DNA of 64,000 nucleotides from Pseudomonas sp. PSKL.D1 (GTDB lineage Bacteria; Pseudomonadota; Gammaproteobacteria; Pseudomonadales; Pseudomonadaceae): positions 2,714,001 to 2,778,000 of the forward strand of contig NZ_CP118607.1 in assembly GCF_028898945.1 (NCBI RefSeq), written 5' to 3'. The notes beneath the pieces are model-generated. The model worked only from the letters and a program-made list of their open reading frames with translations, was not told the DNA's origin and did no database searches. The first letter of the stretch is position 1. Every line of letters begins with the position of its first letter. Shown piece by piece: positions 38,344-51,643 of the stretch. The position numbers and the translations under genes were made by a program.

Positions 38344-38393
38344 CGCGGCCCCCTGTATACCAGGTAGGCCATGTACATCAGGGGCAGGATCAT
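38340..38393 (-). CDS. 17-residue hydrophobic micro-ORF
   Basis: MILPLMYMAYLVYRGPR, preceded by GGAGG at 8 nt. Its ATG overlaps the stop of the upstream gene (ends 38390) and its stop overlaps the ATG of the downstream gene (starts 38343), both as ATGA. It may be a tiny membrane peptide or a translational relay between its neighbours. Confidence 0.5.
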   Translation of the reverse strand: MILPLMYMAYLVYRGPR

Positions 38394-38617
38394 GGGCGCA
38401 CCTCCGTGCCATTGTCCCGGTCTTTCACGCAGAACAGCTGGTAGCCTTTCGGCGTGTTCTCTGGCGCCCGGGCAGCCTCAACTACTGCATTGATGTCGTC
38501 CGTGCCCAGGTCGTTCGAATTGACGAAGAATGTGCGCCGGCCGGTCCTGGGGTTTGGGTGCATGGCCATGGCCGGGGAAAAGCCGATCACTCGGTACTCC
38601 ATGATGAACACGGTCAT
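38390..38617 (-). CDS. Small phage protein, unknown
   Basis: 75 aa from MTVFIMEYRVIGFSPAMAMH. No recognised domain. Basic, with FFVNSNDLGTDDINAVVEAA in the middle. It overlaps the upstream DUF2591 gene by ATGA and the downstream micro-ORF by ATGA. Confidence 0.72.
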   Translation of the reverse strand: MTVFIMEYRVIGFSPAMAMHPNPRTGRRTFFVNSNDLGTDDINAVVEAARAPENTPKGYQLFCVKDRDNGTEVRP

Positions 38618-39033
38618 GACATGAGCTCCTTCGGCACCTGGACGGTATCGCCGAGCTTGGCCTGCGCTACAGCCCGGCAAGCGGCAGTTAACGCGTTAGG
38701 TCCGCCGCCGCTTGGGAGCTCCTGCTGACCGCTTGGCTTGCACACATACGCGCACCAGTACTCGCCGGTTGGGCTGCGACTGAAGCCGCTTCCATTGAAG
38801 CTGGTTTGAACGTGATGCTTGTCAATCAGCGGCCCGCCCAGCGCCCAGTCTTCCCAAGGGTTGTAGCGCTTGGTGTACTCCAAGACGGCGCCCATCTTCC
38901 GAGAGAAAACGCGCCACCCTGTGCCGTACTGCGGCTCTACTAGGTAAAGTTCAAGGCCTTCCGCCTTGCCAACGGCCCACCCCAGCGCCTCGCCGGCCAG
39001 ATCTGCCGTCTTCACTTCGATCAGGTCGGTCAT
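38614..39033 (-). CDS. DUF2591 (NinX-like) phage protein
   Basis: 139 aa. N-terminal MTDLIEVKTADLAGEALGWAV followed by Trp-rich YNPWEDWALGGPLIDKHHV and a C-terminal PNALTAACRAVAQAKLGDTV matches the DUF2591/NinX-type phage family of unknown function. It is stitched by ATGA overlaps to both neighbours. Confidence 0.82.
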   Translation of the reverse strand: MTDLIEVKTADLAGEALGWAVGKAEGLELYLVEPQYGTGWRVFSRKMGAVLEYTKRYNPWEDWALGGPLIDKHHVQTSFNGSGFSRSPTGEYWCAYVCKPSGQQELPSGGGPNALTAACRAVAQAKLGDTVQVPKELMS

Positions 39034-39365
39034 GGCATCAGGCTCCCAATCGCGGCGGCTGCGCGCACGATCGCCCTATGCGGCGACGGGTCAGAAATCG
39101 ATCCTGATGCCAGCCCCTTGTTGTAGTAGGCGATGGCGCCACCAGCTGTGAAATTCACCATCATGTTGAGGCTCATCGCCAGGCTGAACGCATCCCCGTC
39201 GTCAATCAGCGGGCGCCAGTAGAGCCACTTCGATGCAGGTGATTGAGGCTCCGGGATGACTTTTCGCAGAAACGATCCTTGGAATACATCCTCATCGGTC
39301 CAGCGCACCTCAAACCCTGCAGCCTTGGCCGCAAGGCGCAAAAGTTCTTGATCCTGCTCAGTCAC
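39030..39365 (-). CDS. Phage protein distantly similar to DUF2591
   Basis: 111 aa from MTEQDQELLRLAAKAAGFEV. It has WRPLIDDGDAFSLAMSLNM and a C-terminal SPHRAIVRAAAAIGSLMP, a pattern shared by many phage proteins on digital-display-like fold terms only; I assign no function. ATGA overlaps on both sides. Confidence 0.72.
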   Translation of the reverse strand: MTEQDQELLRLAAKAAGFEVRWTDEDVFQGSFLRKVIPEPQSPASKWLYWRPLIDDGDAFSLAMSLNMMVNFTAGGAIAYYNKGLASGSISDPSPHRAIVRAAAAIGSLMP

Positions 39366-39613
39366 AGCTGATACCTCTCATCAATCCAGCGCCCAGGCGC
39401 CAGAGCGGGTGTAGGTTCGGGTTGGGTTTCGTGCGGGGAGAGCTGGCGCTCGTTGCCTGCCTGCAGCTGGCTGTCGGGGATGCAGCTGATGCCGACCCCA
39501 TTCAGCAGGTAGCAAGTGACGCCGCGCTGGCTGTCGTGCTGAACGTCGATGACGTTCTCGGTTGCGCTGGCGCCGGTGGCCAGCAGCAGGAGGCAGAGGG
39601 CGAGGCGGGTCAT
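39362..39613 (-). CDS. Small exported phage protein
   Basis: 83 aa with a signal peptide (MTRLALCLLLLATGASA). The mature part has two Cys (TCYLLNGVGISCIPDSQ) that could form a disulfide, then a Pro/Glu-rich tail. It is an exported product of a prophage left operon, possibly a lysogenic conversion factor. The function is unknown. Confidence 0.72.
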   Translation of the reverse strand: MTRLALCLLLLATGASATENVIDVQHDSQRGVTCYLLNGVGISCIPDSQLQAGNERQLSPHETQPEPTPALAPGRWIDERYQL

Positions 39614-40050
39614 TGGCTCACCTGCTGGATGTTGGAATCGACCCAGTTGCGCATGCGCTGCCATCGCCTTTCGGGCGTGTCCGGCACCAGCTTCCAGCGA
39701 CCGGCGGCATCCTGCACAAACTCGCCCGGGTTATCGTCGTTCTCATAGACGATCTCGGCAGCCAGCGCCTCAGCAATGCCGAAGGCCTGAGCCACGCTCT
39801 CACGGTCATGAGGGTCAATCTTGCTCATGTCAAGGCCGCGCTTGGCGCCGATAGCGCCGAGTGTGCAGAACTCGCCGTCGGCCTCTAGCTTGTCGGTCAC
39901 CAAGCGCTTGTCGGGCATAGCATCCAGCGCGTCGCGCAACTCAGCCAAGAAGGCTTGGCCACGCTTGCCCCTGATGGCTGATGCGACGGCGCCCCGCCAG
40001 CAGATGAGACCCCAGCCACCACAGTCGTCGCTGTATCCGCTGCGGCTCAT
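39610..40050 (-). CDS. Hypothetical phage protein
   Basis: 146 aa from MSRSGYSDDCGGWGLICWRG. It resembles uncharacterised phage proteins with RGKRGQAFLAELRDALDAMP near residue 30 and a charged C-terminal half. ATGA overlaps on both sides place it in the leftward operon. Confidence 0.75.
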   Translation of the reverse strand: MSRSGYSDDCGGWGLICWRGAVASAIRGKRGQAFLAELRDALDAMPDKRLVTDKLEADGEFCTLGAIGAKRGLDMSKIDPHDRESVAQAFGIAEALAAEIVYENDDNPGEFVQDAAGRWKLVPDTPERRWQRMRNWVDSNIQQVSQ

Positions 40051-40376
40051 GGCTTCACCTTGTGGCGAACCCAAACGCAGATCGGACCGTCCTCGGTGTC
40101 GTGGATTGAGAAGGTGAACCAGCCATCACCGGCCGGCTTGCTGGGCTGCCAAGGCGTGCAGTCATAGTCGCCGCCGGCGTCGAGCCATTCCGCGTTCAGC
40201 TCTTCAGGACCGTCGTTTTCCATCTCGACCACGCAGTACTCCAGGCCGTGCTCGCCGAACCAGCTGAACGGCAGTGCGCATTCGTCGCCATCGTCTGGCC
40301 AGGCCGGGTGGGTCCAGAAGCCGTATTCGTCGCGCTCCACCTGCAGCGGCTGGATCAGTTGCTTTTCTTCAGGCAT
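40047..40376 (-). CDS. Acidic hypothetical phage protein
   Basis: 109 aa from MPEEKQLIQPLQVERDEYGF, start chosen for AAGGA upstream; an ATG seven codons earlier exists. Strongly acidic (pI low), Trp-rich (HPAWPDDGDECALPFSWFGE, CTPWQPSKPAGDGWFTF). No recognised domain. It is the first gene after the break at 40377-40541. Confidence 0.72.
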   Translation of the reverse strand: MPEEKQLIQPLQVERDEYGFWTHPAWPDDGDECALPFSWFGEHGLEYCVVEMENDGPEELNAEWLDAGGDYDCTPWQPSKPAGDGWFTFSIHDTEDGPICVWVRHKVKP

Positions 40377-40541
40377 GACTTCGTCCTTGGCCGCCATATC
40401 GCGGCAGTTAATAGATGGGAGAGGGAATTGCCGATTGTCCGATTCGGCTCACAGATCGGCTCGGCGGATTTGCGGAAAATCGGGCGTTCGCTATGGTGGC
40501 AATTAACCACCTAACTACAACTAAAGTCGTAGGAGAACGGC

Positions 40542-40841
40542 ATGCGAATTAGAGGTGATGTCTTTTGGGCCTGGGCTGACCCGTCGCTTCATCACCGCAC
40601 TCACGACGAGACGCTCAACGACGGGACATACATTGATGTTCAGGTGCGACTGTCGCGGACAGGCAGCACGCAGATGTTCATCGGCGTGTACGCGCCGAGT
40701 GGCATGGCCATCCATGAGGAGGCCTTTGATTCTCGACCTGGCGAGTCGATGACCAGGGCTCTTGCTTGGGGCGTGGGCCGTGCCCGCCGAGTTGCCACCG
40801 AAGGTCTGCCTGCTTCCGACCTGCTCTCTGCCTCGAAATAG
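40542..40841 (+). CDS. Hypothetical protein on the opposite strand (moron-like)
   Basis: 99 aa from MRIRGDVFWAWADPSLHHRT, with GTAGGAGAACGGC upstream. No recognised domain; contains DGTYIDVQVRLSRTGSTQMF and a C-terminal helix. It is the only rightward gene inside 13 kb of leftward phage genes. A plausible own promoter (TTGCGG-N16-TATGGT near 40469-40496) lies before it. It may be expressed in the lysogen. Confidence 0.72.
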   Translation: MRIRGDVFWAWADPSLHHRTHDETLNDGTYIDVQVRLSRTGSTQMFIGVYAPSGMAIHEEAFDSRPGESMTRALAWGVGRARRVATEGLPASDLLSASK

Positions 40842-40897
40842 ATGGGGCAGGGGTTACAGTTGGGTGGAGTACAAATGTGCTCCATACGTCAGGCTGG

Positions 40898-41563
40898 CTA
40901 TCGGGTGGTGTTCGGCTGAATCGCGAGACCCCTGACGGCTTCGCTGTAGATGTACTTGATCTTGTCCCAAGGGATGATGTGGCGCTGGCCGTACTCACCC
41001 TCGCCATCGCATATCTCGCAGCCTTCTACCGCCTCATCCAGTTCGCGGCATTCCGGGCATTCCTGGGTGACTTCCAGCTTGAACTCACCTAGCAGCAGTG
41101 CCTTGGCGCCGTTCTCGGCTGTGAGCCGCTTGGGCATTAGGCAGTATCCGTCAGGGATGGATACCAAGGGTCCAACAGGGACAACCGGCAGCCCAGTCTC
41201 GGCCGCATCCCGCTCTGCCTCTTCTTTGTTCCACCAGAAGGCAGTACCAACCATCCAGGCTATAGGCTCGGGGTTGGGCTGCGGGGCTGGCTGAGTGAAT
41301 TCAAGGAATTCCGGCTTGAAGCCGGCGCGCTGCTTGATGGCCATGAGCAGCGAGGCAACCGAGACACCTGCGCCGAAGGTGGTGGCTGGCGGCAGCTTCA
41401 CGGCGCACGGGGTTACTTGCGGCACCTCGGCAGCTTCGACGGCTTTGTTGATCTCCGCCCAGGCTGCAGGGCCAAGGCTCATTTCAGCTTTGATGCGGTC
41501 TATGACCCACATCGGCAGGATGGCCAGTTTTTCGGTATTGGTGGATCGGGCTTCTTTGGCCAT
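40898..41563 (-). CDS. Hypothetical phage protein with C-terminal zinc-ribbon-like cysteines
   Basis: 221 aa from MAKEARSTNTEKLAILPMWV. The C-terminus carries ECPECRELDEAVEGCEICDG, four Cys in two CxxC pairs, like a DnaJ-type or Lar-like zinc ribbon. The middle holds AWMVGTAFWWNKEEAERDA, seen in uncharacterised phage proteins. It lies 10 bp after the retroelement reverse transcriptase and could be co-transcribed. Confidence 0.75.
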   Translation of the reverse strand: MAKEARSTNTEKLAILPMWVIDRIKAEMSLGPAAWAEINKAVEAAEVPQVTPCAVKLPPATTFGAGVSVASLLMAIKQRAGFKPEFLEFTQPAPQPNPEPIAWMVGTAFWWNKEEAERDAAETGLPVVPVGPLVSIPDGYCLMPKRLTAENGAKALLLGEFKLEVTQECPECRELDEAVEGCEICDGEGEYGQRHIIPWDKIKYIYSEAVRGLAIQPNTTR

Positions 41564-41572
41564 GTTGAGTCC

Positions 41573-42730
41573 TCAGCGTTTCGGATAGGTTTGTGTCAAC
41601 GTTCCGTTGACCGAGTGACCTCGTCGCAGAACAAGATTGGCCAGTGCGGCGCGGTCTTTCTGACTATGACTGGCCTGACCAAGTAGGCCGAAATAGCTGT
41701 TGGCCGTCTCTCGTAGGCTCTCTGCTGATGCTGCTGCGGTTCGCTTCAAGGCCTGAGCAACCGACTTTTTGCGAGTGGTTCGGCGCCAGGGCTTAATCAC
41801 ATGCCCGACGAAGTCCACGCCACGGTCAATTGGCTGCAGGATGGTCTTCGAAGGATTTAGCCTTACGCCCAGGCTGGGCAGGAAGTCTTCGATCTGCCGG
41901 AGCCAGTCATTCAACTGTTGTGGCGACTCATGCAGCAGCACGAAGTCGTCGACGTAGCGGATGTAGTGCTTGGCCTTGAGAGTGTGCTTGCAGAACTTGT
42001 CCAGGGCGTCGAGGTAGACGTTGGCGAAGAATTGCGAAGATAGGTTGCCGATGGGTAGGCCGAGGTATGCAGGCTGTGCCGTGAGGCGCTTGTGCTGCGG
42101 CACCCGGTTGAATAGGTGCGCAGGGCTGCGCTCGGTGTAGCTCTCGCGCGGGTCGTGCATAAGCACCTGCAGGGCCAGTTGCCTGAACCATGGGTCGTCG
42201 ATGCGGCTTGACAGTTGCCGGGCCAGCACGCGCTTATCGATAGACACGAAGAAGTTGGCCAGATCGCACTTGAGGTAGAAGCCAGGCCTCGACCAGTTCT
42301 GCGTCTGGCTACGAATCTTCGCCTCCATTCGCTTACCGGCGTACAGCGTGCCGCGTCCTGGGATACAGGCGCAGCTGTCCGCTATGAAGCTGCGTTCGAT
42401 GGCGGGGCCGATACGGTTGTACAGCAGGTGGTGCACGATACGGTCGCGGAAGTCGGCGGCCCACACCTCGCGGGCCTTTGGCCGGGTGACCACAAAGCAG
42501 ATTGAGCGACCCGGTCGGTATGTTCCGGCCTGGAGATCGTCGAATAGGTCGAGGAGATTGATCTCCATGTCTACCTCGAAGCGTCGGGCACTCGCGGTGT
42601 TCCGCTTGTGTCGTCGGCAGTCGTAGTAGGCCTGGGCCAATTCCTCGAAGGTGAAGCTCGCAACGGGCGAATCTGCGGACGGGGCGGACGAGACGCTCGA
42701 CGTCCTTGTCGTTGTTGTTGAGCCAGCCAT
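41573..42730 (-). CDS. Diversity-generating retroelement reverse transcriptase
   Basis: 385 aa if started at the ATG at 42730; the only other upstream in-frame start is TTG at 42736. N-terminal FTFEELAQAYYDCRRHKRN aligns with the start of the BPP-1 Brt enzyme. RT motifs: catalytic Asp near 157 in KCDLANFFVSID, the DGR-type IGNLSSQ (residues 227-233) in place of the retron/intron QGxxxSP, and YVDD at 259-262 in RYVDDFVLL. No RNase H or maturase domain. It copies the template RNA with adenine-specific errors. Its first 20 codons lie inside the template repeat. Confidence 0.93.
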   Translation of the reverse strand: MAGSTTTTRTSSVSSAPSADSPVASFTFEELAQAYYDCRRHKRNTASARRFEVDMEINLLDLFDDLQAGTYRPGRSICFVVTRPKAREVWAADFRDRIVHHLLYNRIGPAIERSFIADSCACIPGRGTLYAGKRMEAKIRSQTQNWSRPGFYLKCDLANFFVSIDKRVLARQLSSRIDDPWFRQLALQVLMHDPRESYTERSPAHLFNRVPQHKRLTAQPAYLGLPIGNLSSQFFANVYLDALDKFCKHTLKAKHYIRYVDDFVLLHESPQQLNDWLRQIEDFLPSLGVRLNPSKTILQPIDRGVDFVGHVIKPWRRTTRKKSVAQALKRTAAASAESLRETANSYFGLLGQASHSQKDRAALANLVLRRGHSVNGTLTQTYPKR

Positions 42731-42773
42731 CCTCAAAGTCCATGTTGTAGGCGTTGTTGGCGGAGAACTGCGA
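42670..42773 (-). repeat. DGR template repeat (TR)
   Basis: 104 nt on the minus strand. It reads as SQFSANNAYNMDFEDGWLNN... then DKDVERLVRPVRR; the AAC (Asn) codon density is typical of templates. It shares its invariant ends with the variable repeats at 43345-43451, 44043-44143 and 47665-47768. The GC-rich 3' end (CTCGTCCGCCCCGTCCGCAG) is identical in all four and is the likely initiation-of-mutagenic-homology segment. It overlaps the 5' end of the RT gene and is 155 bp from avd. Confidence 0.95.
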
Positions 42774-42928
42774 CCTATCGTGCTATCTACGTCGCCAGGA
42801 CGATTGCTCAGCCTGGAAACTGCGCCGGACCTACCGGAATCTGCTGGTGGTATCCGTGGTGCGCATGGCGGTGATCACAGATCAGCGGCACGACCAGATT
42901 CAGCGCACAGGCAGGAGGGCCGTAACCC

Positions 42929-43282
42929 TCAAGCAGCGGGCGCGGTTGCGGATTTTTTCCAGGCATTTGCCTGTCGGCCTACGGAGGCCGTGAGCTTCAT
43001 TGCCTTGGCGTGCTGACCCTTGCTTATCAGGCCCTTGTTGGTGAGGGCGCGCAGCAGGTAGTTCAGCATCCATACGCTTTCGAGCAGAAGGTTCAGGTGC
43101 GGGAGCTTGTCCCGTGCCATGTTGGCGCGACCAATCAGCACCAGAGCTTGCAGGCATTCGTCCCGGATCTTCGAGCCGACGACCTGCTTGATGTCGCGCG
43201 GGATGTTTCGAACCAGGTCGAGTGAAAGGCCAAGCAGTTCCTCGGCCACCTTGTGTATTTCGAGCTCTGTGTGCAGGGCCAT
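42929..43282 (-). CDS. avd: Avd-like accessory variability determinant
   Basis: 117 aa, preceded by AGGAGG. All-helical and basic: EIHKVAEELLGLSLDLVRNI, ECLQALVLIGRANMARDKLP, LLESVWMLNYLLRALTNKGL, then SKGQHAKAMKLTASVGRQ, matching the four-helix bundle of the bAvd family. Avd forms a pentamer that binds DGR RT and template RNA and is required for mutagenic retrohoming. It lies between target 1 and the template repeat. Confidence 0.9.
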   Translation of the reverse strand: MALHTELEIHKVAEELLGLSLDLVRNIPRDIKQVVGSKIRDECLQALVLIGRANMARDKLPHLNLLLESVWMLNYLLRALTNKGLISKGQHAKAMKLTASVGRQANAWKKSATAPAA

Positions 43283-43301
43283 CCTGGCCTCCTAAAAGCG
43301 A

Positions 43302-43317
43302 GGGCGCCGAGGCGCCC
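43302..43317. other. Hairpin/cruciform just downstream of variable repeat 1
   Basis: GGGCGCC-GA-GGCGCCC, a 7-bp inverted repeat starting 18 bp past the target 1 stop. DGRs such as BPP-1 carry a short inverted repeat just 3' of the variable repeat that promotes target recognition; this sits where that element should be. Confidence 0.6.
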
Positions 43318-43334
43318 AGGAATGAAGAATTGGA

Positions 43335-43910
43335 TTACGAAATAAATCTGCGGACGGGGCGGACGAGACGCTCGACGCCCTTGGCGTCGTGGCTGCCGAG
43401 CCAGCCACCCTCAAAGCCCATGAGGTAGGCGCTGTGGGCGGAGAACTGCGAAGACGACCAGTGATAGGCCTTTTCGAAAAGTTCTGGCACGTTCGCCTCG
43501 GCCACCTGCAACTCACGGCGGGCGGGCAGATAGAAGTCGTTGTGCCCGTCGGCAGTGAATTCGCTAGCCAACTTGGCAGCCGGGTGAGAATTGCTATCGG
43601 CCAGCAGCGCCCGGGTATTGGAAAGGCCGTCACTCATGCTGGAGGCGCCTTCGCATTCCTCGCCGCGACCACCCCATTCGGCGCGAACCTGCTCGGTCAG
43701 CAAAGGAACGATCAGGTAGTAGTCCGGCGCACCATTCTCTCCGCGCACCAGGCCAGCGTTGTAACCACCTTGCCCGGGCCAGTACGAGCCCAGGGCAGGC
43801 ACATCGGAAGGCGCTGCATCAAGCGCCGCATAGTTGAGCAGGCGGTCGAATTCGCGCTGGATAATTCGGGACGCCACATTGGCGTCAATGCTGATGTTGA
43901 CTTGCTCCAT
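43335..43910 (-). CDS. DGR target protein 1, DUF1566/C-type-lectin-like
   Basis: 191 aa. The N-terminal helix region (MEQVNISIDANVASRII) is followed by a C-type-lectin-like DUF1566 domain: FTADGHNDFYLPARRELQVA and YHWSSSQFSAHSAYLMGFEGGW, ending in ERLVRPVRR. The last 36 residues are encoded by the variable repeat 43345-43451. It has no signal peptide. The motif ASSMSDGLSNTRA is shared with the other two targets. Diversified residues in this fold form a ligand-binding face. The ligand is unknown. Confidence 0.9.
   Translation of the reverse strand: MEQVNISIDANVASRIIQREFDRLLNYAALDAAPSDVPALGSYWPGQGGYNAGLVRGENGAPDYYLIVPLLTEQVRAEWGGRGEECEGASSMSDGLSNTRALLADSNSHPAAKLASEFTADGHNDFYLPARRELQVAEANVPELFEKAYHWSSSQFSAHSAYLMGFEGGWLGSHDAKGVERLVRPVRRFIS
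43345..43451 (-). repeat. DGR variable repeat 1 (VR1)
   Basis: 107 nt, aligned with the 104-nt template with one in-frame 3-nt insertion. Eleven substitutions, all at template adenines: AAC to CAC, AGC, CTC, GGC, AGC, CAC; GAC to GGC twice; GAT to GGT. Both ends are identical to the template. Confidence 0.95.
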
Positions 43911-44026
43911 GGGGTGCTCCTGATGGAAATAGGTGCAGGCGGCCGGCGCTTCCCGGCGCGCTTCTGGTCTGAACGTCGTCCTGACGAACCCGGAATCACC
44001 TGCGAAGAAAGGAATGAAGGAGTGAA

Positions 44027-44503
44027 TTACTGAAGGATGAGGCTGCGGACGGGGCGGACGAGACGCTCGACGTCCTTGCCGATGCTGGTGAGCCAGCCAG
44101 CCTCAAAGCCCAAGCAGTAGGCGAGGTTGGCGGAGAACTGCGAACTCAGCCAGTGGAAGCGATCTTCGCGCAAGGTCACTAGGCCCTCAGCCTTGGCTGC
44201 CATCAGCAACTGACCTTCCAGGCAAGACGGGATGAACGCGCCCAGTTCCAGCGCCTTGGTGGCGATCAAGCTGCCGGCTTCGGCCATGGCGTGGGTATTG
44301 GCCTCGCCGTCGCTGTAGCTGCTAGCGCCCTTGATCTCGACGCCGTACTCGCCCCAGGCGCCTTCGAACTCTTCAGGCATCAGCACCAGGGCGCGCTCTT
44401 GGTCGTTCAGCCAGTAGCGGGTAACGAAGATGCCACCAGCCAGCATCTGACCGCGTTCAGGCAGGTCAGCGGCGGCAATGGATTGCAGTACAGATTGGGT
44501 CAT
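44027..44503 (-). CDS. DGR target protein 2, DUF1566/C-type-lectin-like
   Basis: 158 aa from MTQSVLQSIAAADLPERGQM, with GGAGAA upstream. The shared ASSYSDGEANTHA motif is present. The lectin-like C-terminus reads FHWLSSQFSANLAYCLGFEAGW and ends SLILQ. The variable repeat 44043-44143 encodes the last part. Of the three targets it has the least standard DUF1566 core (FIPSCLEGQLLMAA in place of FYLPxxxEL). No signal peptide. Confidence 0.88.
   Translation of the reverse strand: MTQSVLQSIAAADLPERGQMLAGGIFVTRYWLNDQERALVLMPEEFEGAWGEYGVEIKGASSYSDGEANTHAMAEAGSLIATKALELGAFIPSCLEGQLLMAAKAEGLVTLREDRFHWLSSQFSANLAYCLGFEAGWLTSIGKDVERLVRPVRSLILQ
44043..44143 (-). repeat. DGR variable repeat 2 (VR2)
   Basis: 101 nt with no gaps against the template. 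Eleven substitutions, all at template adenines: AAC to CTC, TGC, ACC, AGC, ATC; ATG to TTG; GAC to GGC twice; GAT to GCT. The 3' homology ends at CGCAG, 3 nt earlier than in VR1 and VR3. I found no hairpin within 30 bp downstream. Confidence 0.95.
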
Positions 44504-44574
44504 GACTTTCTCCAGGGTGTAAGCCGCCCTCCATGGCTGGTGGCGGTGACTTGATAATTCGTGGGGTGGGCCAG

Positions 44575-44763
44575 TTACTTCAGGATGGCTCTTGCGCATG
44601 CCTGGATCTCAATCCAGAGCGACGACGAGGGCCGCGCTTCGTACTTGACGAGCGCACCGGCGATCCGCATAGCCAGATCTTCTTTGCTACCGGTTGGCAG
44701 CGATGGCGGCTGATGGGCAAGCTGGATCGGCAAATCGTATTGCCCGGGCAGGTCGATTCGCAT
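44575..44763 (-). CDS. Small phage protein, unknown
   Basis: 62 aa from MRIDLPGQYDLPIQLAHQPP, with AAGGAG 9 nt upstream. No recognised domain. It lies between target 2 and the helix-turn-helix protein gene in the leftward operon. Confidence 0.68.
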   Translation of the reverse strand: MRIDLPGQYDLPIQLAHQPPSLPTGSKEDLAMRIAGALVKYEARPSSSLWIEIQACARAILK

Positions 44764-44838
44764 CGCTGGCTCCTTCGTGCAATCCGCTTGGCGGAAGGTG
44801 GAATTGTTCTTGTCTTCGGCGCTGGCGGACCTGGAACT

Positions 44839-45357
44839 TCAGATTGGACCGTCGCATCGCTTGCCCTCAGCTTTGGGGTAATCGACGCCGAACAGATCAA
44901 TGATCCGACAGAATTTGCGGTCGGATATACCAAGCTTGATCTTCGCCTGGGTGCGGTTCAGGCCCGCATCGCGCAACTCGACGACCTGCGCAGCCAGGAC
45001 TTTGTCAGCTTCAGGGTCTGCATAAACCCTATTCTTCTCGCCTCGACCTCGGTTTGGGTCGGGCCTGAAGCAGAAGCATCCCTCCATAGCTGCACGGTAC
45101 AGCGTGGTCTGAGCCAGGCCGGTGTGCCTCATGGCCTCGGCGTAAGTCATGGTCTTGGCGAGCTTGCGCAACTCGGCCAGTTGTTCCTGGCGCTTCTGCG
45201 CCTTCAGCCCTAGTGGCTTCGGCTGTATGGCGCGCACCTGCTCGATGTCGCGATGCGGACGGTGCGGCACGTACTGGAAGCCTTCGAGCACGATGATGCT
45301 GCCTCCAGAGGCAAGGAAGGCCGCTTGTGCGGCCTCTAGGTCGATGGATTGGTTCAT
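44839..45357 (-). CDS. Phage DNA-binding-like protein
   Basis: 172 aa from MNQSIDLEAAQAAFLASGGS. The middle, LAELRKLAKTMTYAEAMRHT followed by GLAQTTLYRAAMEG, reads as a helix-turn-helix; a second HTH-like segment is LNRTQAKIKLGISDRKFCRI. Probable regulatory or replication accessory protein. It is 7 bp from the Gp157-like gene. Confidence 0.75.
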   Translation of the reverse strand: MNQSIDLEAAQAAFLASGGSIIVLEGFQYVPHRPHRDIEQVRAIQPKPLGLKAQKRQEQLAELRKLAKTMTYAEAMRHTGLAQTTLYRAAMEGCFCFRPDPNRGRGEKNRVYADPEADKVLAAQVVELRDAGLNRTQAKIKLGISDRKFCRIIDLFGVDYPKAEGKRCDGPI

Positions 45358-45364
45358 GCCTGCC

Positions 45365-45928
45365 TCACTTGATGCGGATCGAGCTCTCGCCGCGCTCAAG
45401 ATGCGCCCAGGCTGGCTCGGGGATGAGTTCGTCTTCGCAGTCCTCGCCGGCGGCCATGCGCTTTCGTACGTCCTCGTTGTGCTCGCGGTCAGCCTTGAGC
45501 TTGGCGGCGATAGCGCTCTTGTCCGGTGTGATCTTGGTAGTCACCGAAGTAAGGTCGTCTGGTACCGCATCCTCGTTGTCGACGATCACCTTTTCTTTTC
45601 CGGCAACCAGGCTGATGGTGAACAGCGGCCGCTTGATTGACTTGATGTTGGCCGCATCCATGTTGCGGCGCAGGTAGTCGGTTATGGCGGTAACGCTGTT
45701 GGCCTTGATGCGCTTCAGCTCGTTGAGGCGGTTTATCTCAGCGTCAATGGCGCCGATGTCACCCTCGATGTTCCGGCGCAGCATCACGATGTTGTCGGCC
45801 TTCACTTCGAATTCGCCCTGAATACCGGCCATGGTGTCCTGAATGGCCTGCTTCAGGCCTTCGTCATCGGTGTCGCACATAGCGGCCAGTTCGGCCATCT
45901 GGCCGGTGAGTGCGTAGAGCTGGGTCAT
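45365..45928 (-). CDS. Siphovirus Gp157-like protein
   Basis: 187 aa. The N-terminal MTQLYALTGQMAELAAMCDT, a coiled coil (IEGDIGAIDAEINRLNELKR) and the tail TDYLRRNMDAANIKSIKRPLF match the Gp157 family, linked in Streptococcus phage Sfi21 to phage resistance and usually found beside recombination genes. It overlaps the annealing-protein gene by ATGA. Confidence 0.88.
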   Translation of the reverse strand: MTQLYALTGQMAELAAMCDTDDEGLKQAIQDTMAGIQGEFEVKADNIVMLRRNIEGDIGAIDAEINRLNELKRIKANSVTAITDYLRRNMDAANIKSIKRPLFTISLVAGKEKVIVDNEDAVPDDLTSVTTKITPDKSAIAAKLKADREHNEDVRKRMAAGEDCEDELIPEPAWAHLERGESSIRIK

Positions 45929-46656
45929 ACTGCAGCCTCCTGCGGTTTGCCGGTTTCGAGGTTTTTCAGTTCAAGGGAGATGCGCGCGGCGCCTTTCTCA
46001 TCCTTACGGCCAATGAGCTTACGCACTGCATGGTCGTGGATTTTCTTGCGCTCGTGCGGCGTTGCGGCGCTTTGCATCAGGCCAATGGTCTCCTTGATGT
46101 AGTCAAGGCGCTCTTGCTGCTGTCGCTCAATCTCTGCCTGCTTGTCTTCGGCTTGCTCGATAGCCTGCTCGGCTTGCAGCTGCTGGACGTAGTTCTGATC
46201 ATCGAACATGCCCAGGAACACATCGGCACTGAAGCCCAACATGGAAAGGGCTTTCTTGATGGCGTCGGTCAGCGATTTCTTTGGCGCCTCGCCATCTGTG
46301 GTCATGCCGTAGTTGGTCTTGTACTGATACCGTGTGCACCCGTACTGCTCGATCTCACCGCGCTGGCCGTCCTGTACGAACCACAGGCAGATCTTGACGG
46401 TGTGGCCGATCTCGCGGCCAATGCAGGTGCGCTTGTCACCTTCTCCGGCGTAGATCTCGTGGCCGTCATCGAAGCGCTCTTCGATAATCTTCCAGCCCCA
46501 ACCGATGCCAACTGGCCCAAACAACTCGGTGGCCTTCATGACCATAGCGGTGCCGTTCAGGCTGGTGATCTGCTGGCCGCCGACCTTGGCGTCCTTGGTG
46601 TATCGGGTGTCGGTCGTCTGGACCTTCTCCCAGATGCTCATGTTGGTGGTGGACAT
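45925..46656 (-). CDS. Rad52/Sak-like single-strand annealing protein
   Basis: 243 aa. TELFGPVGIGWGWKIIEERF and APKKSLTDAIKKALSMLGFS, then ADVFLGMFDD, are characteristic of Rad52-family phage annealing proteins (Sak-like). The C-terminal 80 residues are a charged coiled coil. It would anneal ssDNA in phage recombination. The family call is by motif memory; ERF-type is the alternative. Confidence 0.8.
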   Translation of the reverse strand: MSTTNMSIWEKVQTTDTRYTKDAKVGGQQITSLNGTAMVMKATELFGPVGIGWGWKIIEERFDDGHEIYAGEGDKRTCIGREIGHTVKICLWFVQDGQRGEIEQYGCTRYQYKTNYGMTTDGEAPKKSLTDAIKKALSMLGFSADVFLGMFDDQNYVQQLQAEQAIEQAEDKQAEIERQQQERLDYIKETIGLMQSAATPHERKKIHDHAVRKLIGRKDEKGAARISLELKNLETGKPQEAAV

Positions 46657-46832
46657 TGGAAAACCTCGCGCCAGGCCGGCGCCGTCAGTTGGAATAGGGA
46701 ATGCCAGGTCACCCAGACACGGAGGAAAGTTCCAGGCCCTGGCTGCGGTGGATGGTTGCGCGCTCTCGCCGCTTACGCTCCCGAAGGGGTACGGTTATCC
46801 CCGATGGGGCCCGCCGTGCTCGGGTGCGTGAA

Positions 46833-46946
46833 TCAGGAAGTGATGCTGCCGGCCCAGGCGCTCGCAAGCATCCAGGCGGTGCAGATGAGGAGGGCGGCGA
46901 ATCTGCCGCGCCAGAATGCCCAGCGCCTCTCTTGCTTACGGTTCAT
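46833..46946 (-). CDS. 37-residue membrane peptide
   Basis: MNRKQERRWAFWRGRFAALL followed by a hydrophobic helix and a short tail. The positively charged N-terminus plus one membrane segment is typical of small phage membrane peptides. Its ATG overlaps the upstream gene's stop (ATGA). The 176-bp gap to the annealing-protein gene shows no other gene. Confidence 0.55.
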   Translation of the reverse strand: MNRKQERRWAFWRGRFAALLICTAWMLASAWAGSITS

Positions 46947-47137
46947 GGCCTCACACGGATGGCGATGCGGCGACCTTTCATGGTGACGCCAAGGCTACGC
47001 GTCAGGCTCTGCACCATCGTATTGCGGGGCAGGCCTACGGCCTCGCTGAACGAAAGACCGAAGCTGATCACTGCCAGGCTGCGCTCGATCTGCTCAAGCT
47101 GTTCGTCAATCAAGGACTTCACAGGCGCAGTACTCAT
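46943..47137 (-). CDS. Small phage protein, unknown
   Basis: 64 aa from MSTAPVKSLIDEQLEQIERS. The start is chosen for its ATGA overlap with the upstream gene. SFGLSFSEAVGLPRNTMVQS suggests a short helix-turn-helix. No named family. Confidence 0.65.
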   Translation of the reverse strand: MSTAPVKSLIDEQLEQIERSLAVISFGLSFSEAVGLPRNTMVQSLTRSLGVTMKGRRIAIRVRP

Positions 47138-47364
47138 GCGACTCTCCCTTTTGTGGTCATCCATTGCTGGTGGTCAGCGATAACAAATCGGTTAAGCCGT
47201 TCCTTGTAGTGACGCTGTTCTGGCAGGTCTATCGCTCCTACAAGTCCGGCCAGGTCGATGGCGGTGTCTAGCTCGGCGCGAAGCACATCCGTGAACCGTT
47301 CCCTTGCCCATTCAAACCGCGACTCAATGAAGTCGACTACGTCCTGCCTGGTTTTCTTGTTCAT
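47134..47364 (-). CDS. Small phage protein, unknown
   Basis: 76 aa from MNKKTRQDVVDFIESRFEWA. Helical, mixed charge. ATGA overlaps on both sides. No recognised domain. Confidence 0.68.
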   Translation of the reverse strand: MNKKTRQDVVDFIESRFEWARERFTDVLRAELDTAIDLAGLVGAIDLPEQRHYKERLNRFVIADHQQWMTTKGRVA

Positions 47365-47519
47365 GCTGCCTCCGGCTCATCTTGCGCAGCCTTCACCGGG
47401 CAGCGCTTCAGGTGTTGCATCAAGGCGAACTGATTGCATGGCTGAACCCCACACCAGGGGCATTCGAGCGAGTCGTCGTCCGGTTCAAGCCTGTGGTTGC
47501 CAAGGTATGGGCAGGCCAT
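47361..47519 (-). CDS. Small zinc-finger-like phage protein
   Basis: 52 aa from MACPYLGNHRLEPDDDSLEC, preceded by AAGGAGG. Cys/His arrangement CPWCGVQPC followed by HLKRCP is consistent with a small zinc finger. First of the small-gene run downstream of target 3. Confidence 0.7.
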   Translation of the reverse strand: MACPYLGNHRLEPDDDSLECPWCGVQPCNQFALMQHLKRCPVKAAQDEPEAA

Positions 47520-47623
47520 GAAGCCTCCTTTGCTGACGACCGCATTGATCAGGCGCCGAGCGCCAGTGACCAAGCTGGGCGTGAAAAGCCAGCTCGGCGC
47601 CTGTCAATGCGGTCGAAGAAAGA

Positions 47624-47640
47624 GCCCCGCAGAGCGGGGC
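47624..47640. other. Hairpin/cruciform just downstream of variable repeat 3
   Basis: GCCCCGC-AGA-GCGGGGC, a 7-bp perfect inverted repeat 15 bp past the target 3 stop, at a position equivalent to the one after VR1. On the minus strand it is followed by TCTTTCTT, so it may also act as a terminator. Confidence 0.6.
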
Positions 47641-47654
47641 ATTGAAGGAATGAA

Positions 47655-48137
47655 TTACTGAAGGAATCTGCGGACGGGGCGGACGAGACGCTCGACGCCC
47701 TTGCCGAGGCCGTAGAGCCAGCCACCCTCAAAGTGCATGAAGTAGGCGCTGTAGGCGGAGAACTGCGAAGATGACCAGTAGTACCAGTCGATTGCGAACG
47801 ACTCCGGCAAAAACTGCCAGGCGTGGTGCAGTTCGCCAATCGAAGGCAGGTAGAAGTCGGCGTGGCCGTCGGCGGTGTAGCCAGCTGCAGCGATAGCAGC
47901 GGGGTGCTTGCCTTCACGGCCAACCAGCACCTCAGTGTTGGCCCGGCCATCAGTCCGGCTCACAGCCTCAACCTTTACGCCGTAGTCGCCGTAAGCGTGG
48001 CGACCCGGCACATCTTCAACAGCAAAGATGATGTGACAGAGACCTTCAGGGTACTGGCGGATACCGCCGTAGATGCCGCCTTGGACTGGCCAGATTTCGC
48101 CGATGGCCGGCGGGGTCAGCTTCTGTTCTGCGTTCAT
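47655..48137 (-). CDS. DGR target protein 3, DUF1566/C-type-lectin-like
   Basis: 160 aa from MNAEQKLTPPAIGEIWPVQG. It has the shared AVSRTDGRANTEV motif, then YTADGHADFYLPSIGELHHA and YYWSSSQFSAYSAYFMHFEGGW, ending ERLVRPVRRFLQ. It is closest to target 1 in the C-terminal half. The variable repeat is 47665-47768. It lies 3.5 kb upstream of the other targets, with recombination genes between, yet its variable repeat is fully adenine-diversified. No signal peptide. Confidence 0.9.
   Translation of the reverse strand: MNAEQKLTPPAIGEIWPVQGGIYGGIRQYPEGLCHIIFAVEDVPGRHAYGDYGVKVEAVSRTDGRANTEVLVGREGKHPAAIAAAGYTADGHADFYLPSIGELHHAWQFLPESFAIDWYYWSSSQFSAYSAYFMHFEGGWLYGLGKGVERLVRPVRRFLQ
47665..47768 (-). 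repeat. DGR variable repeat 3 (VR3)
   Basis: 104 nt with no gaps against the template. Thirteen substitutions: twelve at template adenines, and one G to C (template GAC, VR3 CAC in the codon after ATG). The ends are identical to the template. Confidence 0.95.
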
Positions 48138-48397
48138 GGGGTGTTCCTGTGTCGGGTGGGGTAGGGTGCATCGGGGTGTGATCTGCGCGGAAGGCAAGCC
48201 CCGCTTGGCGCCTGAGAGTGCGCCCCCTCAAGCCACGCTCCGGTGATTACTCACTGCCTGGTCGTGGTCTCGCTTTCTTCCCGAGGTTGCGAACCCTCGT
48301 GTCTCGGCTAGGTGCCAGCGCCTTAATGTCTGCTGGCGGTTTCAGATCACACTCCGATGCAGCCTGCGATGGGGAGCAGGGTATCGGGCAGTTAACG

Positions 48398-48784
48398 TCA
48401 GGCTGACGTGGCGGATTCTTCTTTATGCGCCCGGTGGTAGCCCGACTCGAAGAAAGCTTGCTGCTCCTCGTCTCGGCCATCCCTTTTCCACTCTTCAGTG
48501 GAGCGGTGGATAATCTCTCCGTTATGGGCTGTGCGGCGATCCTTTGGGCTGTCGTGATAGGCCCGATAACCGTCGATCCAAGCCTTCGCGTCTTTTCGGC
48601 GAGGAACGTCCGCAAACCCGCTTTTGGTGTTGTTGCCGCTGTAGTGACCGCCAACGACGCGCTTACCTTCCGCGTCGAGGATGTGCCAGGAGGCGATCCA
48701 GTTGTGATGCGCGCACGAACCCCACAAGCACAGGCGCCAAACATAAGCGCGCTCGTTGCTGATCTTGAAGCCCTTGTATTCCAT
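48398..48784 (-). CDS. Hypothetical phage protein
   Basis: 128 aa from MEYKGFKISNERAYVWRLCL, with AGAGG upstream. The N-terminal YKGFKISNER and WIASWHILDAEGKRV pattern with a HYSGNNTKSGF loop is common in uncharacterised phage proteins. The C-terminus is charged. The 260-bp interval between it and target 3 shows no convincing gene. Confidence 0.72.
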   Translation of the reverse strand: MEYKGFKISNERAYVWRLCLWGSCAHHNWIASWHILDAEGKRVVGGHYSGNNTKSGFADVPRRKDAKAWIDGYRAYHDSPKDRRTAHNGEIIHRSTEEWKRDGRDEEQQAFFESGYHRAHKEESATSA

Positions 48785-48955
48785 CGCGTTGCCTCTAGGG
48801 CGGTTGATTTCCCGTCTGGCCCTGTCGCCAAGGCCAGCCAGTGAAATCTTTTCCCACATTACCGCCAGGGTGGCGGGGCGCATTGCATGCCCGGGTCGTT
48901 CTCTCAGTTCAGGCGTTTCACCTTCGTCAGCCGTACAGGGTGATCCCTGTCGTGG

Positions 48956-48971
48956 GCAGCCTTTCGGGGCT
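48956..48971 (-). promoter_or_regulatory. BoxB-like hairpin of a possible nut site
   Basis: On the minus strand CAGCC-CCGAAA-GGCTG, a 5-bp stem with a GAAA-containing loop, lies about 55 nt downstream of the boxA-like sequence. Together they resemble a lambdoid nut site in the early left leader. No N-like gene is certain; an Arg-rich 60-codon frame with a TTG start (48904-49086) spans the leader but lacks an RBS. Confidence 0.35.
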
Positions 48972-49025
48972 GTCTGGCGCCGGTCGCCGGTAGAGGCAAT
49001 GCGGTCTGTTGGTTGTTGCGCTGGC

Positions 49026-49038
49026 TTTTAAAGAGCGG
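49026..49038 (-). promoter_or_regulatory. BoxA-like antitermination sequence
   Basis: Minus strand CCGCTCTTTAAAA at 49026-49038 matches the boxA consensus (CGCTCTTA / TGCTCTTTAACA). It is about 45 nt after the predicted start of leftward transcription. Confidence 0.45.
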
Positions 49039-49084
49039 TGGCTGCTTTCGCTGCCGGCCGGGTGGTGTGCGCCGGCTGTGAGGC

Positions 49085-49125
49085 AAATATGTACCACCGG
49101 TTCACGGTAGTCAAGTACCAAAAGT
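49085..49125 (-). promoter_or_regulatory. Early left promoter (PL) with overlapping operator
   Basis: Minus strand TTGACT (-35), 17-bp spacer, CATATT (-10) near 49085-49115. The spacer holds an imperfect palindrome, ACTACCG-TGAAC-CGGTGGT. Just upstream TGTACTTTTGGTAC matches operators at 50837 and 50861 (TGTACTTnnnGTTC). This is the expected site of repressor control over the leftward operon, including the DGR. Confidence 0.55.
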
Positions 49126-49146
49126 ACACATTTTTTGTTCGGGCAC

Positions 49147-49170
49147 AAAAAAGCCCGCGCTAGGCGGGCT
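49147..49170 (-). terminator. Intrinsic terminator after the XhlA-like gene
   Basis: Minus strand AGCCCGCCTAGCGCGGGCTT followed by TTTT, a 7-bp GC stem plus a T-run, 20 bp after the stop of the upstream gene. It insulates the lysogenic (repressor) transcript from the left promoter region. Confidence 0.85.
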
Positions 49171-49189
49171 TCGTGTTCGGCGTTTAGGG

Positions 49190-49573
49190 CTACTGGCCCA
49201 GGGTTTTCATAATGGGGGAGAGGTACTGCTGCGCAAGCCACCAAAGACCGCCAAGGACTGAGCCAGTCACCGCGGTAAGACCAATGAGCGCCCAAACAGC
49301 GAGCTGGCCTTTTGTGACCATATGGCTAGTGATGTTCGCGAGGGTGACCTCAGCAGATTTTGCGGAGACCTTTAGCTCGGAAACATCGGAGCCGATCATC
49401 TTGGCTTCAGCCTTCAGATCAGCGATGTCCCTACGCATGTACTCGATATGGCTTTCGAGCTTTGCTACGCGAGCTTCCAATTCTGATCCTCCGCCGCCTC
49501 CGCCAGTACCATCATAGCCGTTGTCGCCGGCGTGTCGGCGTGGGAACTGGCTAATATTTGACTTATTCGTCAT
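49190..49573 (-). CDS. XhlA-like membrane protein with coiled coil
   Basis: 127 aa. A low-complexity N-terminus (Gly run) is followed by a coiled coil (LEARVAKLESHIEYMRRDIA, DLKAEAKMIGSDVSELK) and one C-terminal membrane helix (GLTAVTGSVLGGLWWLA). The plan resembles XhlA/hemolysin-type phage proteins. It is encoded in the repressor transcript, so it may act in the lysogen (for example in exclusion), which is inferred. Confidence 0.75.
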   Translation of the reverse strand: MTNKSNISQFPRRHAGDNGYDGTGGGGGGSELEARVAKLESHIEYMRRDIADLKAEAKMIGSDVSELKVSAKSAEVTLANITSHMVTKGQLAVWALIGLTAVTGSVLGGLWWLAQQYLSPIMKTLGQ

Positions 49574-49856
49574 CTTGATCCTTGGTCTTGATCCATGTCC
49601 ACACCCGAGATGCAGAAATCATCCTAGCGTGACCGCAACAGTTGCAGTTAAGCCAGAAAAACCAATTTTCCAGATCCTCATCTCTCGGGTCTGGAATTGC
49701 CAGTAGATTTGGCTGATTGTCCGGATTTAAAACTAGATCGTGCTCGCCATCTGCGCAGTCGCAGGCCATAGGCACTCGGAATGCCTCTAGAAAATCTCGA
49801 ACCTGATGCTCAGTAATAGCTAGAGTTTCGTCGACGATGTTTTCAGGGTCTTGCAT
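49563..49856 (-). CDS. Hypothetical lysogenic-operon protein with Cys-rich centre
   Basis: 97 aa from MQDPENIVDETLAITEHQVR, with GGAGAG upstream. Acidic, with MACDCADGEH and WLNCNCCGHARM, likely metal-binding. It overlaps the XhlA-like gene by 11 bp and is in the CI transcript. No named family. Confidence 0.7.
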   Translation of the reverse strand: MQDPENIVDETLAITEHQVRDFLEAFRVPMACDCADGEHDLVLNPDNQPNLLAIPDPRDEDLENWFFWLNCNCCGHARMISASRVWTWIKTKDQDDE

Positions 49857-49898
49857 CAAGCTCTCCGCGCTTGGCACGCTTTGAATTATCAACGGTGG

Positions 49899-50138
49899 TT
49901 ATCTAGGCCTGTGAAGCCTGTTAAGGAACCAATCCTTCACGGCCGACAGCCCGAATACCGCGAAGAAAGACGCCACATAGAGGGCGAAGTAGGCAAGCTC
50001 TGCCCAGCTACCGTGCTGTCGATGGAGCCATCCGTCCAGCCACCAGACAAGAACAGCAAGGGCGGCGAAAACCAGAAACGCCAGCGTCCATGCGTGCTTT
50101 TCATGTGCGTCGTAAACCTTCTTCTCTGCTGGGGTCAT
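49899..50138 (-). CDS. Two-helix membrane protein downstream of the repressor
   Basis: 79 aa from MTPAEKKVYDAHEKHAWTLA. Two membrane helices (LAFLVFAALAVLVWWLDGWL and AYFALYVASFFAVFGLSAV) with a basic C-terminus. Located 1 bp after the repressor gene and co-transcribed with it, so probably expressed in the lysogen. Superinfection exclusion is possible but unproven. Confidence 0.7.
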   Translation of the reverse strand: MTPAEKKVYDAHEKHAWTLAFLVFAALAVLVWWLDGWLHRQHGSWAELAYFALYVASFFAVFGLSAVKDWFLNRLHRPR

Positions 50139-50139
50139 T

Positions 50140-50811
50140 TCACTTTTCCTTGCTCTCCAGGCCGGCTCCATGAACCTTCTCACTTCTACGCTTCTGGACA
50201 AGCGTGGTTATTGCCTGGATCTCTTCAGGGTCCATCGCCTGGTAGACGGCAGCCTCCAGCACAGAATCCAACAGTATTAGGATCTCTGTTGCGTGCTTCT
50301 GGCATCCAACCACCTGCCGCGCAATTGACTCAGCCTCTTCCTTGTCCATAGCGGAAAGAGCTGTCAGTACTCGGTGAATCCTGGCAAACATCGGCACGCC
50401 GGCGATCACTTTTTCTAGAAATTCAGCGTCTTTATTGGACTCGACAAACAGATCTACCCCGGCCCTCGGCCCGGCGGCCGGAATGGCCGACCCATCCGCA
50501 GCGCTGACCGCGGCAAAAACTGGGCCTACAGCAGCTCCGATCATAAATGGCAGCGCACCTGCGCCATCCCGCATTGGTCCACGCCCGTACTCCAGCCACT
50601 CAGCCCGAACCTTGAGAGCATCGGCCAGAGCAAGCATTTTTGCGCCACCGGGCATTGCTTCACCGTTTAGCCATTTACTGCTCGCCTTTGGTGTCACCCC
50701 GGCAATTTTCGCCAAACGAGCACCAGCTCCCCACGACTGGATGTCGTTGGCTGCAAGAGCTTCACGTAGGCGAGCCGCGAAAGACTCGCGGACTTCTTCT
50801 ATTTGAACCAT
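50140..50811 (-). CDS. CI-like phage repressor without a peptidase domain
   Basis: 223 aa if started at [15 protein letters not shown] (50811); an ATG at 50856 would place the start inside the operator region. The HTH is clear: [20 protein letters not shown], then [18 protein letters not shown]. The C-terminal half lacks the Ser-Lys autoprotease motifs of S24 repressors. It faces the cro-like gene across an 85-bp operator/promoter region. No Shine-Dalgarno is visible, as in leaderless lambda cI mRNA. Confidence 0.82.
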
Positions 50812-50831
50812 AGGTTCAATGTCGCACGCGC

Positions 50832-50874
50832 TTGCATGTACTTTCAGTTCCGACATAATATGTACTTGCAGTTC
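50832..50874 (+). promoter_or_regulatory. Right promoter (PR) and two repressor operators
   Basis: TTGCAT at 50832, 16-bp spacer, CATAAT at 50854-50859 form the promoter for cro. TGTACTTTCAGTTC (50837-50850) and TGTACTTGCAGTTC (50861-50874) are near-identical 14-bp sites, 24 bp apart, one in the spacer and one over the start. A related site lies at PL. Confidence 0.65.
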
Positions 50875-50896
50875 ATATTCTCTGTTGGAGGCCCAA

Positions 50897-51136
50897 ATGC
50901 AGGCACTCAAGAAGGCAATCGATGACGCGGGCGGGGTATCCGCCGTAGCGCTCGCTTGCGGGAAAACGCCGCGCGCCGTCTACAAGTGGCTCGCAGCTGG
51001 ATGTCTCCCGCGCACCGAATACACCGGTGAAACCAAGTACGCCGCAAAAATCGCTTCTTTGGCCAAGGCCAATGGCAAGGCGTTCAAACCTGCGCGACTG
51101 CTTGCCGACGCCGCGCCCACAAAAACCGCAGCTTAA
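50897..51136 (+). CDS. Cro-like repressor
   Basis: 79 aa from [20 protein letters not shown], with GGAGG upstream. The YdaS/Cro-type HTH is [20 protein letters not shown] with the recognition helix TPRAVYKWL. The first gene rightward of PR, divergent from the CI-like gene, the position of cro. Confidence 0.85.
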
Positions 51137-51161
51137 CCACCTACCAGGAGCAGTACCCGCA

Positions 51162-51356
51162 ATGAGCGACCTGACACGCCCCAGCAAAAAGAACATCAAT
51201 CAGATGAAGGTCCTTCTGGACGACGAGTTTGATGGACTTCTGGAGTGCGCCGCACAGATCCACGGAACCAAGAAGGCCGTACTGGCTCGCGAAGTCCTGA
51301 AGTCCTGGCTGCTTGATGTTGTTGGAAATTCTATCCGCGACGACCGTGCGGCCTGA
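51162..51356 (+). CDS. Small ribbon-helix-helix-like early protein
   Basis: 64 aa from MSDLTRPSKKNINQMKVLLD, AGGAG 10 nt upstream. DDEFDGLLECAAQIHGTKKA followed by VLAREVLKSW resembles the helix pair of ribbon-helix-helix regulators. It sits where lambdoid phages have cII, but no CII motif is visible. Confidence 0.7.
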   Translation: MSDLTRPSKKNINQMKVLLDDEFDGLLECAAQIHGTKKAVLAREVLKSWLLDVVGNSIRDDRAA

Positions 51357-51405
51357 AGCGAATCCGTAGGGACCCAGTAAGGACCCGACAGGGACCGGAG
51401 GCGAT

Positions 51406-51597: not shown

Positions 51598-51617
51598 GAA
51601 GCCCGGTAAGCGGGCAT

Positions 51618-51643
51618 GAAAAAGCCGACGTACGAGGTCGGCT
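51618..51643 (-). terminator. Leftward terminator between the cII-position gene and O
   Basis: AGCCGAC-N7-GTCGGCT hairpin at 51623-51643, followed on the minus strand by TTTTTCATG. It points opposite to the surrounding genes. A short leftward transcript started within the first codons of O would end here, as oop RNA does in lambda. Confidence 0.5.

Follow-up and report, generated by a model that had tools for sequence, protein, structure and literature searches.

A one-template, three-target diversity-generating retroelement in a Pseudomonas prophage, with a template RNA likely built from the 5' side

Among the described diversity-generating retroelements (DGRs), that of Bordetella phage BPP-1 (brt, avd, template repeat and mtd; RF03022) can be compared part by part with the locus presented here. 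The locus lies on the minus strand, at positions 41573-48137 of a 64,000-nt stretch of the Pseudomonas sp. PSKL.D1 genome (referred to as the window), and comprises a reverse transcriptase (RT), an Avd protein, a single template repeat (TR) and three target genes, each with a variable repeat (VR) at its 3' end. Both elements have related RTs (32% identity to BPP-1 brt), Avd, a single TR, adenine-specific VRs and the order avd-TR-RT. In BPP-1, however, there is no gap between avd and TR, the 144 nt between TR and brt match the Phage_DGR RNA family and a single tail protein is the target, whereas in the window a structured RNA, RT-15, stands between avd and TR, no spacer precedes the RT and the three targets belong to the early region. 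The 3' spacer of BPP-1 recruits RT and Avd, and a spacer adenine primes cDNA synthesis (PMC12875486). As far as the accessible literature goes, the priming model of DGRs appears to rest on BPP-1, that is, on a structured RNA located 3' of the template. A single-sequence search of the BPP-1 TR end against its spacer gave a 7-bp match, a length at which other candidates are possible.

Closer counterparts are found in temperate phages. The DGR of Burkholderia phage Magia (MT701587) is of the same lineage (RT 63%) and also has RT-15 and Avd; its early region contains two targets annotated as lectin-fold proteins. The targets named in the accessible text of its description are genes 47 and 57, and no discussion of RNA for this DGR is seen in that text (PMC7883833); the VR scan gives three VRs, the third inside gene 46 (L006, 6903-7367), which is not a target named there. 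Pseudomonas phages Cruim01, Haboob, LPPA56, VB_PaD_phPA-G and SC_8_H2H8_2017 likewise carry an RT of this lineage (68-77%), RT-15 and VRs found by scanning, and their targets are annotated as hypothetical proteins or not annotated at all.

By the core features tested, except for a 3' spacer of the BPP-1 type, the locus is a DGR. An earlier note on this DNA had placed here a prophage DGR with RT, Avd-like protein, TR and three VR-ended targets, and all these parts are present within the interval given above (Table 1). The RT belongs to the phage reverse-transcriptase family phrog_1423, and its profile does not fall outside the DGR-type RTs. The closest solved structure is 8ub7, which we take to be the BPP-1 DGR enzyme. 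The Avd protein scored above the Pfam bAvd cutoff and below the NCBIfam Avd cutoff (47 vs 80 bits). PDB sequence searches with Avd and with target 1 returned no match at E <=1. A DGR-type RT and Avd are accompanied by adenine-specific TR/VR pairs and by a C-type-lectin fold around the VR, as predicted for targets 1 and 3. Alignment of TR with the VRs bore out the adenine pattern, with 34 of 35 substitutions in the window located at template adenines: 11 differences in VR2, all at A, 13 in VR3, 12 of them at A, and 11 in VR1, all at A, in addition to a 3-nt insertion whose gap position was chosen to minimise non-A changes. A genome-wide search with the 131-nt TR region recovered TR and the three VRs with E values no higher than 1e-30, and all further matches had E of at least 0.19 and covered at most 32 bases. 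Adenine is present in 16 of the 33 TR codons, a single codon (AAG) is convertible to a stop by A changes, and with every A free to vary the TR could encode about 3e13 proteins. Changes in VR length were also observed: VR1 of the window is longer by one codon, and the VR in target 2 of L101 (3622-4104) by two; they lie in or near an AAC-rich stretch of the template, and RT slippage is a possible cause.

The part missing from the earlier note is RT-15 (RF03018), and with it the template RNA takes on a permuted look. The window matches the whole Rfam model. In Rfam, RT-15 is listed as a small RNA gene in which the AAUCUG motif is unpaired, whereas here it would form part of the DGR template RNA, with the motif paired to the TR end. 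The family was matched in the window, in 7 of 7 related phages, in 8 of 8 selected bacterial loci and in L061, and thus in 17 of 17 scanned loci with RT identity of at least 57%; by its coordinates it ends at the TR start, and in Magia and phPA-G it comes after the gene annotated as Avd. In the consensus fold of 70 loci, the conserved GAAUCUG of RT-15 pairs with CAGAUUC at the TR 3' end. The fold and the second alignment (A2) both used these 70, out of 120 regions, after removal of near-duplicates. In A2, 89.8% of helix cells are paired, and double-sided changes occur in 39 cells against 7.4 (sd 2.4) after shuffling; 39 was reached in 0 of 500 shuffles, and slid versions of the helix gave 4-14. 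Pair 126/449, for instance, is GC in 39 cases, AU in 10, UA in 10 and CG in 5. The long-range helix between RT-15 and the TR end is therefore supported by compensatory changes. In loci with CGCAGAT, 224 of 229 VRs lose their homology to TR within 1-8 nt beyond the first base of the helix.

Pairing of the same kind, by different sequences, is found in some more distant relatives. Locus L067 has a 10-bp Watson-Crick helix (GCATCATTTG with CAAATGATGC), L099 a 9-bp Watson-Crick helix, and L072, L077 and L100 have 8 bp each; the 5' arm is located 148 (L067), 195 (L077) and 121 (L099) nt upstream of the TR start. Of the 13 loci whose RT identity is under 55%, 5 have helices of at least 8 bp, in comparison with 0.6% of combinations with main-lineage flanks. 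The helix length was reached in no more than 6 of 200 shuffles in L063, L067, L072, L077, L099 and L100. Among 139 loci, with relatedness kept in, a TR-end helix of at least 7 bp was formed with the 5' flank in 95 and with the 3' flank in 12.

Several observations weigh against a template RNA organized in this way. RT-15 was matched in just 2 of 19 more distant loci, and the helix is absent from 4 of the 70 aligned rows (L043, L054, L060 and L105), in three of which no VR was found; in the fourth, L105, a VR appears to be joined to the RT gene. Taken alone, the window is unremarkable, its helix length being reached in 34 of 200 shuffles, and the length is unexceptional in 9 of the 15 other loci tested (L061, L066, L071, L074, L082, L094, L095, L096 and L098). 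Duplex energy is exceptional just in L099 (1/200) and weakly so in L100 (21/200), and not in the 13 other distant loci or in the window. Moreover, the longest helix between TR and its flanks lies elsewhere in 51 of 123 loci, in 21 of them with 9 bp, and, as the sequences are related, the counts do not represent independent events.

The best-supported new point is that the template RNA is likely built from the 5' side. In the mechanism proposed, RT and Avd would bind an RNA running from RT-15 through TR, the helix would bring RT-15 to the TR 3' end, and cDNA synthesis would start there; the cDNA, miscopied at A, would then replace the 3' end of each target gene, the two tandem ones and the distal one. 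The position of RT-15 and the analogy with BPP-1 suggest that the RNA containing it primes cDNA synthesis. The products would bind, in variable fashion, molecules of the host or of rival phages inside the cell, rather than serve as tail adhesins. For this reading as a whole, that is, a one-template, three-target DGR in which the 5' structured RNA RT-15 likely shapes the template RNA and three small proteins are predicted to be rewritten by mutagenic retrohoming, a probability of about 0.65 is given, since the helix is missing from part of the distant loci. A wider proposal falls somewhat short of an even chance. It assumes a class of DGRs with an inside-out template RNA, in which RT-15 on the 5' side would clamp the TR 3' end by a 7-10 bp helix, start the cDNA and replace the 3' spacer, the helix sequence being rewritten in distant lineages, and in which pairs or triplets of early intracellular phage proteins would be diversified.

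If the structured RNA does lie on the other side of the template, the rule would be pairing with the template 3' end and not the order of parts. The orphan family RT-15 would then gain a function, and template boundaries in other DGRs could be found in this way. No paper was found under the names RT-15 RNA, RF03018, Phage_DGR or RF03022 in a search with incomplete journal coverage, and a published link between RT-15 and DGRs is possible. In the distant DGRs L099, L100, L072 and L077, TR stands 13-30 nt before the RT and its end pairs with the 5' flank; scans of L072, L077 and L100 gave no RT-15 match, and the 5' RNAs of these distant DGRs may represent undescribed families.

Mutagenic retrohoming in cells is predicted, and related sequences carry footprints of the kind that it would leave. 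RT relatives were taken from bacterial genomes (the best 80 of more), IMG/VR (the best 80 of more) and phage records, and 168 loci were scanned. As the first VR scan favours A mismatches, the scan was repeated with symmetric scoring (at least 70% identity, ends trimmed). In the 264 VRs compared with their own TR, 45.7% of A differ, compared with 0.25% of C, 0.59% of G and 0.77% of T; 10 VRs that were split or shorter than 85 nt were left out of the first such spectrum. At non-A positions where a TR deviates from its group consensus, the VRs agree with the TR of their own locus in 1336 of 1349 cases, and those of distal targets in 136 of 139 (loci with RT identity of at least 75%; these loci are related and the cases are not independent events). 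Near-identical pairs, with no more than 3% difference over the 300 nt that precede the VR, gave 17 comparisons, of which seven showed zero differences, look like duplicates and were left out. In the other ten, 138 of the 261 sites with A had changed, against 4 of the 647 without A and 20 of the 3000 upstream. The outcome that the earlier note had named as refuting, repeats of related prophages that lack adenine-specific variation, did not occur. Target 1 of L101 and L109 is identical over 459 nt outside the VR and carries 12 changes in 100 nt inside it, all at A sites. In target 2 of Aurca01 and Medea1, 4 of 498 sites differ outside the VR, and inside it 15 of 32 template-A sites and 0 of 73 other sites.

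As to the number of targets, VR counts per locus were made after dropping matches with more than 3 non-A mismatches, on fetched loci that show at most about 9 kb upstream. Among 112 loci with at least 8.9 kb upstream, no VR was counted in 9, one in 9, two in 67, three in 26 and four in 1, which gives two or more in 94 and three or more in 27. The norm of the lineage is two tandem targets no more than 1.7 kb upstream of the RT, the distal target being optional; a further 30 VRs were found 2.1-9.2 kb upstream of the RT in relatives. Multi-target DGRs are also in print for Treponema denticola and Stenotrophomonas (PMC10743442, PMC6642488). They likewise have one template and several targets, which in the accessible parts of these papers are not described as early-region phage genes, and the targets of Stenotrophomonas SKA14 are also DUF1566 proteins (PMC6642488). 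Consequently, the idea that three targets on one template are less usual is weak, and the number of targets is not treated as a novelty. Within the genus of the window, the RT was found at E 1e-80 or better in 10 of 149 genomes, the source genome included.

The targets were described in the earlier note as DUF1566/C-type-lectin-like proteins, which holds in part. Fold prediction covered targets 1 and 3, and both models resemble the C-terminal domain of Lcl. In the Pfam search, these two score 20.6 and 20.3 bits with Lcl_C/DUF1566 (PF07603), below the gathering value of 34.9, and target 2 has no match to this family. The maximum hydropathy over 19 residues is 0.60-1.20 in the three window targets; in relatives, a value of 1.6 is reached in 27 of 253 targets, and an N-terminal 10-mer of at least 2.0 in 61 of 253, some perhaps through wrong start codons. 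The DGR occupies the early leftward region of the prophage, since it is flanked by an integrase gene and a repressor-like gene, and replication and structural genes lie to the right. The small early-region targets between integrase and repressor are, like the template RNA, an addition to the earlier note. Gene order and the lack of a link to the tail suggest an intracellular role of the targets, either in the lysogen or at an early stage of infection. Hypervariable early-region targets in temperate phages make roles of DGRs other than in the tail testable, and, if this is true, they would constitute a phage-borne hypervariable recognition system acting inside the cell.

The placement of the priming RNA and the present state of the element can each be read differently. 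The locus might be built as in BPP-1, with a 3' priming spacer concealed within the coding region of the RT; RT-15 would then be a separate leader that regulates RT translation or halts reverse transcription. The BPP-1 element itself has a 3' spacer together with a stop signal in the avd mRNA 3' end (PMC12875486), RT-15 overlaps the avd 3' end by 17 nt, and the RT frame is open upstream through TR in 88 of 130 related loci. TR adjoins or overlaps the RT coding start (in the window the first part of the RT open reading frame lies within it), and no spacer precedes the RT. However, Phage_DGR, the 3' spacer RNA of the BPP-1 type, has no match at E <=0.5 in 35000-52000. A spacer hidden in the RT start should conserve synonymous sites, and these vary: no synonymous constraint was seen in RT codons 1-45 of 121 RTs (out of 131, from 168 loci), as 4-fold diversity in codons 1-15, 16-30 and 31-45 of the conserved part was 0.49, 0.58 and 0.44 against a mean of 0.50, and some later stretches were lower (0.40-0.41). 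Together with the covarying pairing of RT-15 and the TR 3' end, this makes a BPP-1-like arrangement unlikely. It is more improbable still that the DGR is a recently inactivated remnant with an old VR pattern. The insertion in VR1, the one non-A change in VR3, the loss of three adenines from the window TR (GACGTC vs AACAAC in 12 alignable close relatives) and the loss of the DGR core in some relatives would agree with inactivation. Against this, no interruption is seen in the RT, avd, RT-15 or any of the targets, all of which are complete as judged by length, and all three VRs share the GTC of the window's own TR, which fits copying after the TR change, although independent A changes could also give GTC.

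The preferred reading, with targets acting inside the cell, also has to be weighed against a role on the virion, where the proteins would be receptor-binding add-ons that alter host range, like Mtd, in spite of being encoded in the early region. In several clades, the targets of phage DGRs are mostly tail proteins (PMC8144416, section 9), and the target fold matches surface adhesins such as Lcl. Of 16 viral structure matches (E <=0.001), the 13 outside the three inspected include long proteins named tail fiber. Such a role is nevertheless doubtful, though less so than a BPP-1-like spacer: the genes have an early-region position, as they do in those annotated relatives that were inspected, the separate tail-spike gene of the prophage carries no VR by the genome-wide TR search, and window targets 1-3 have no strongly hydrophobic stretch.

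In the order of transcription, the locus reads target 3, a stretch of about 3 kb, target 2, target 1, avd, RT-15, TR and RT. The stretch between targets 3 and 2 encodes an exonuclease-family protein (phrog_7838), a Gp157/Gam-like protein and a helix-turn-helix protein. On the plus strand to the right are genes for replication, terminase, head-tail adaptor and head; those for tail, lysis and tail spike are located beyond the window.

Table 1. Positions in the window of the DGR parts and of the genes flanking the element
Feature	Position	Strand	Basis
RT, DGR-type (IGNLSSQ, YVDD)	41573..42736	-	phrog_1423 E 5e-116; RVT_1 above cutoff; 8ub7 E 3e-39; protein alignment
RT, conserved part	start ~42655	-	
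TR core, 101 nt, 24 A	42673..42773	-	TR/VR comparison
Helix 3' arm CAGAUUC, TR 3' end	42669..42675	-	consensus fold and covariation
Helix 5' arm GAAUCUG, within RT-15	42895..42901	-	unpaired in Rfam model; consensus fold and covariation
RT-15 structured RNA (RF03018), between avd and TR	42771..42945	-	159.9 bits (gathering 82), E 6e-39
avd, accessory protein	42929..43282	-	bAvd PF22296 55 bits (cutoff 40); phrog_3206
Target 1, 191 aa, C-type-lectin-like	43335..43910	-	predicted fold
VR1, 104 nt, 3-nt insertion	43348..43451	-	TR comparison
Target 2, 158 aa	44027..44503	-	phrog_4245 E 2e-22; aligns with other targets
VR2	44043..44143	-	TR comparison
Target 3, distal, 160 aa, C-type-lectin-like	47655..48137	-	predicted fold
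VR3	47668..47768	-	TR comparison
Integrase, downstream of DGR	36923-35730		
Repressor-like gene, upstream of DGR	50910-50140		

A hairpin just downstream of the VR, a feature of BPP-1-type DGRs, is present after VR1 and VR3 of the window and absent after VR2, and such hairpins are not general in relatives. In general, the data do not support a conserved hairpin after each VR: in loci with RT identity of at least 75%, the 70 nt following the VRs gave means of -17.7, -13.6 and -14.9 kcal/mol compared with -19.3 for random 70-mers of the same loci. No clear shared motif was found after the VRs.

Some relatives retain only a part of the element. In Aurca01 (L185, 5875-7183) and Medea1 (L186, 4875-6183), two tandem targets have VRs with A-only differences from the Cruim01 template, and across each whole record the RT is reduced to a 59-residue remnant; these targets may be orphans after loss of the DGR core, or may be served in trans by a co-resident DGR. 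Phage vB_Pae_U7 (L184, 4267-5462) has two tandem target-like genes, and the RT search of its record was negative. In L105, the RT of which is 95% identical to that of the window, a VR-like sequence precedes the RT near its start (3148-3537) and RT-15 is missing, an arrangement suggestive of a deletion that joined a target VR to TR.

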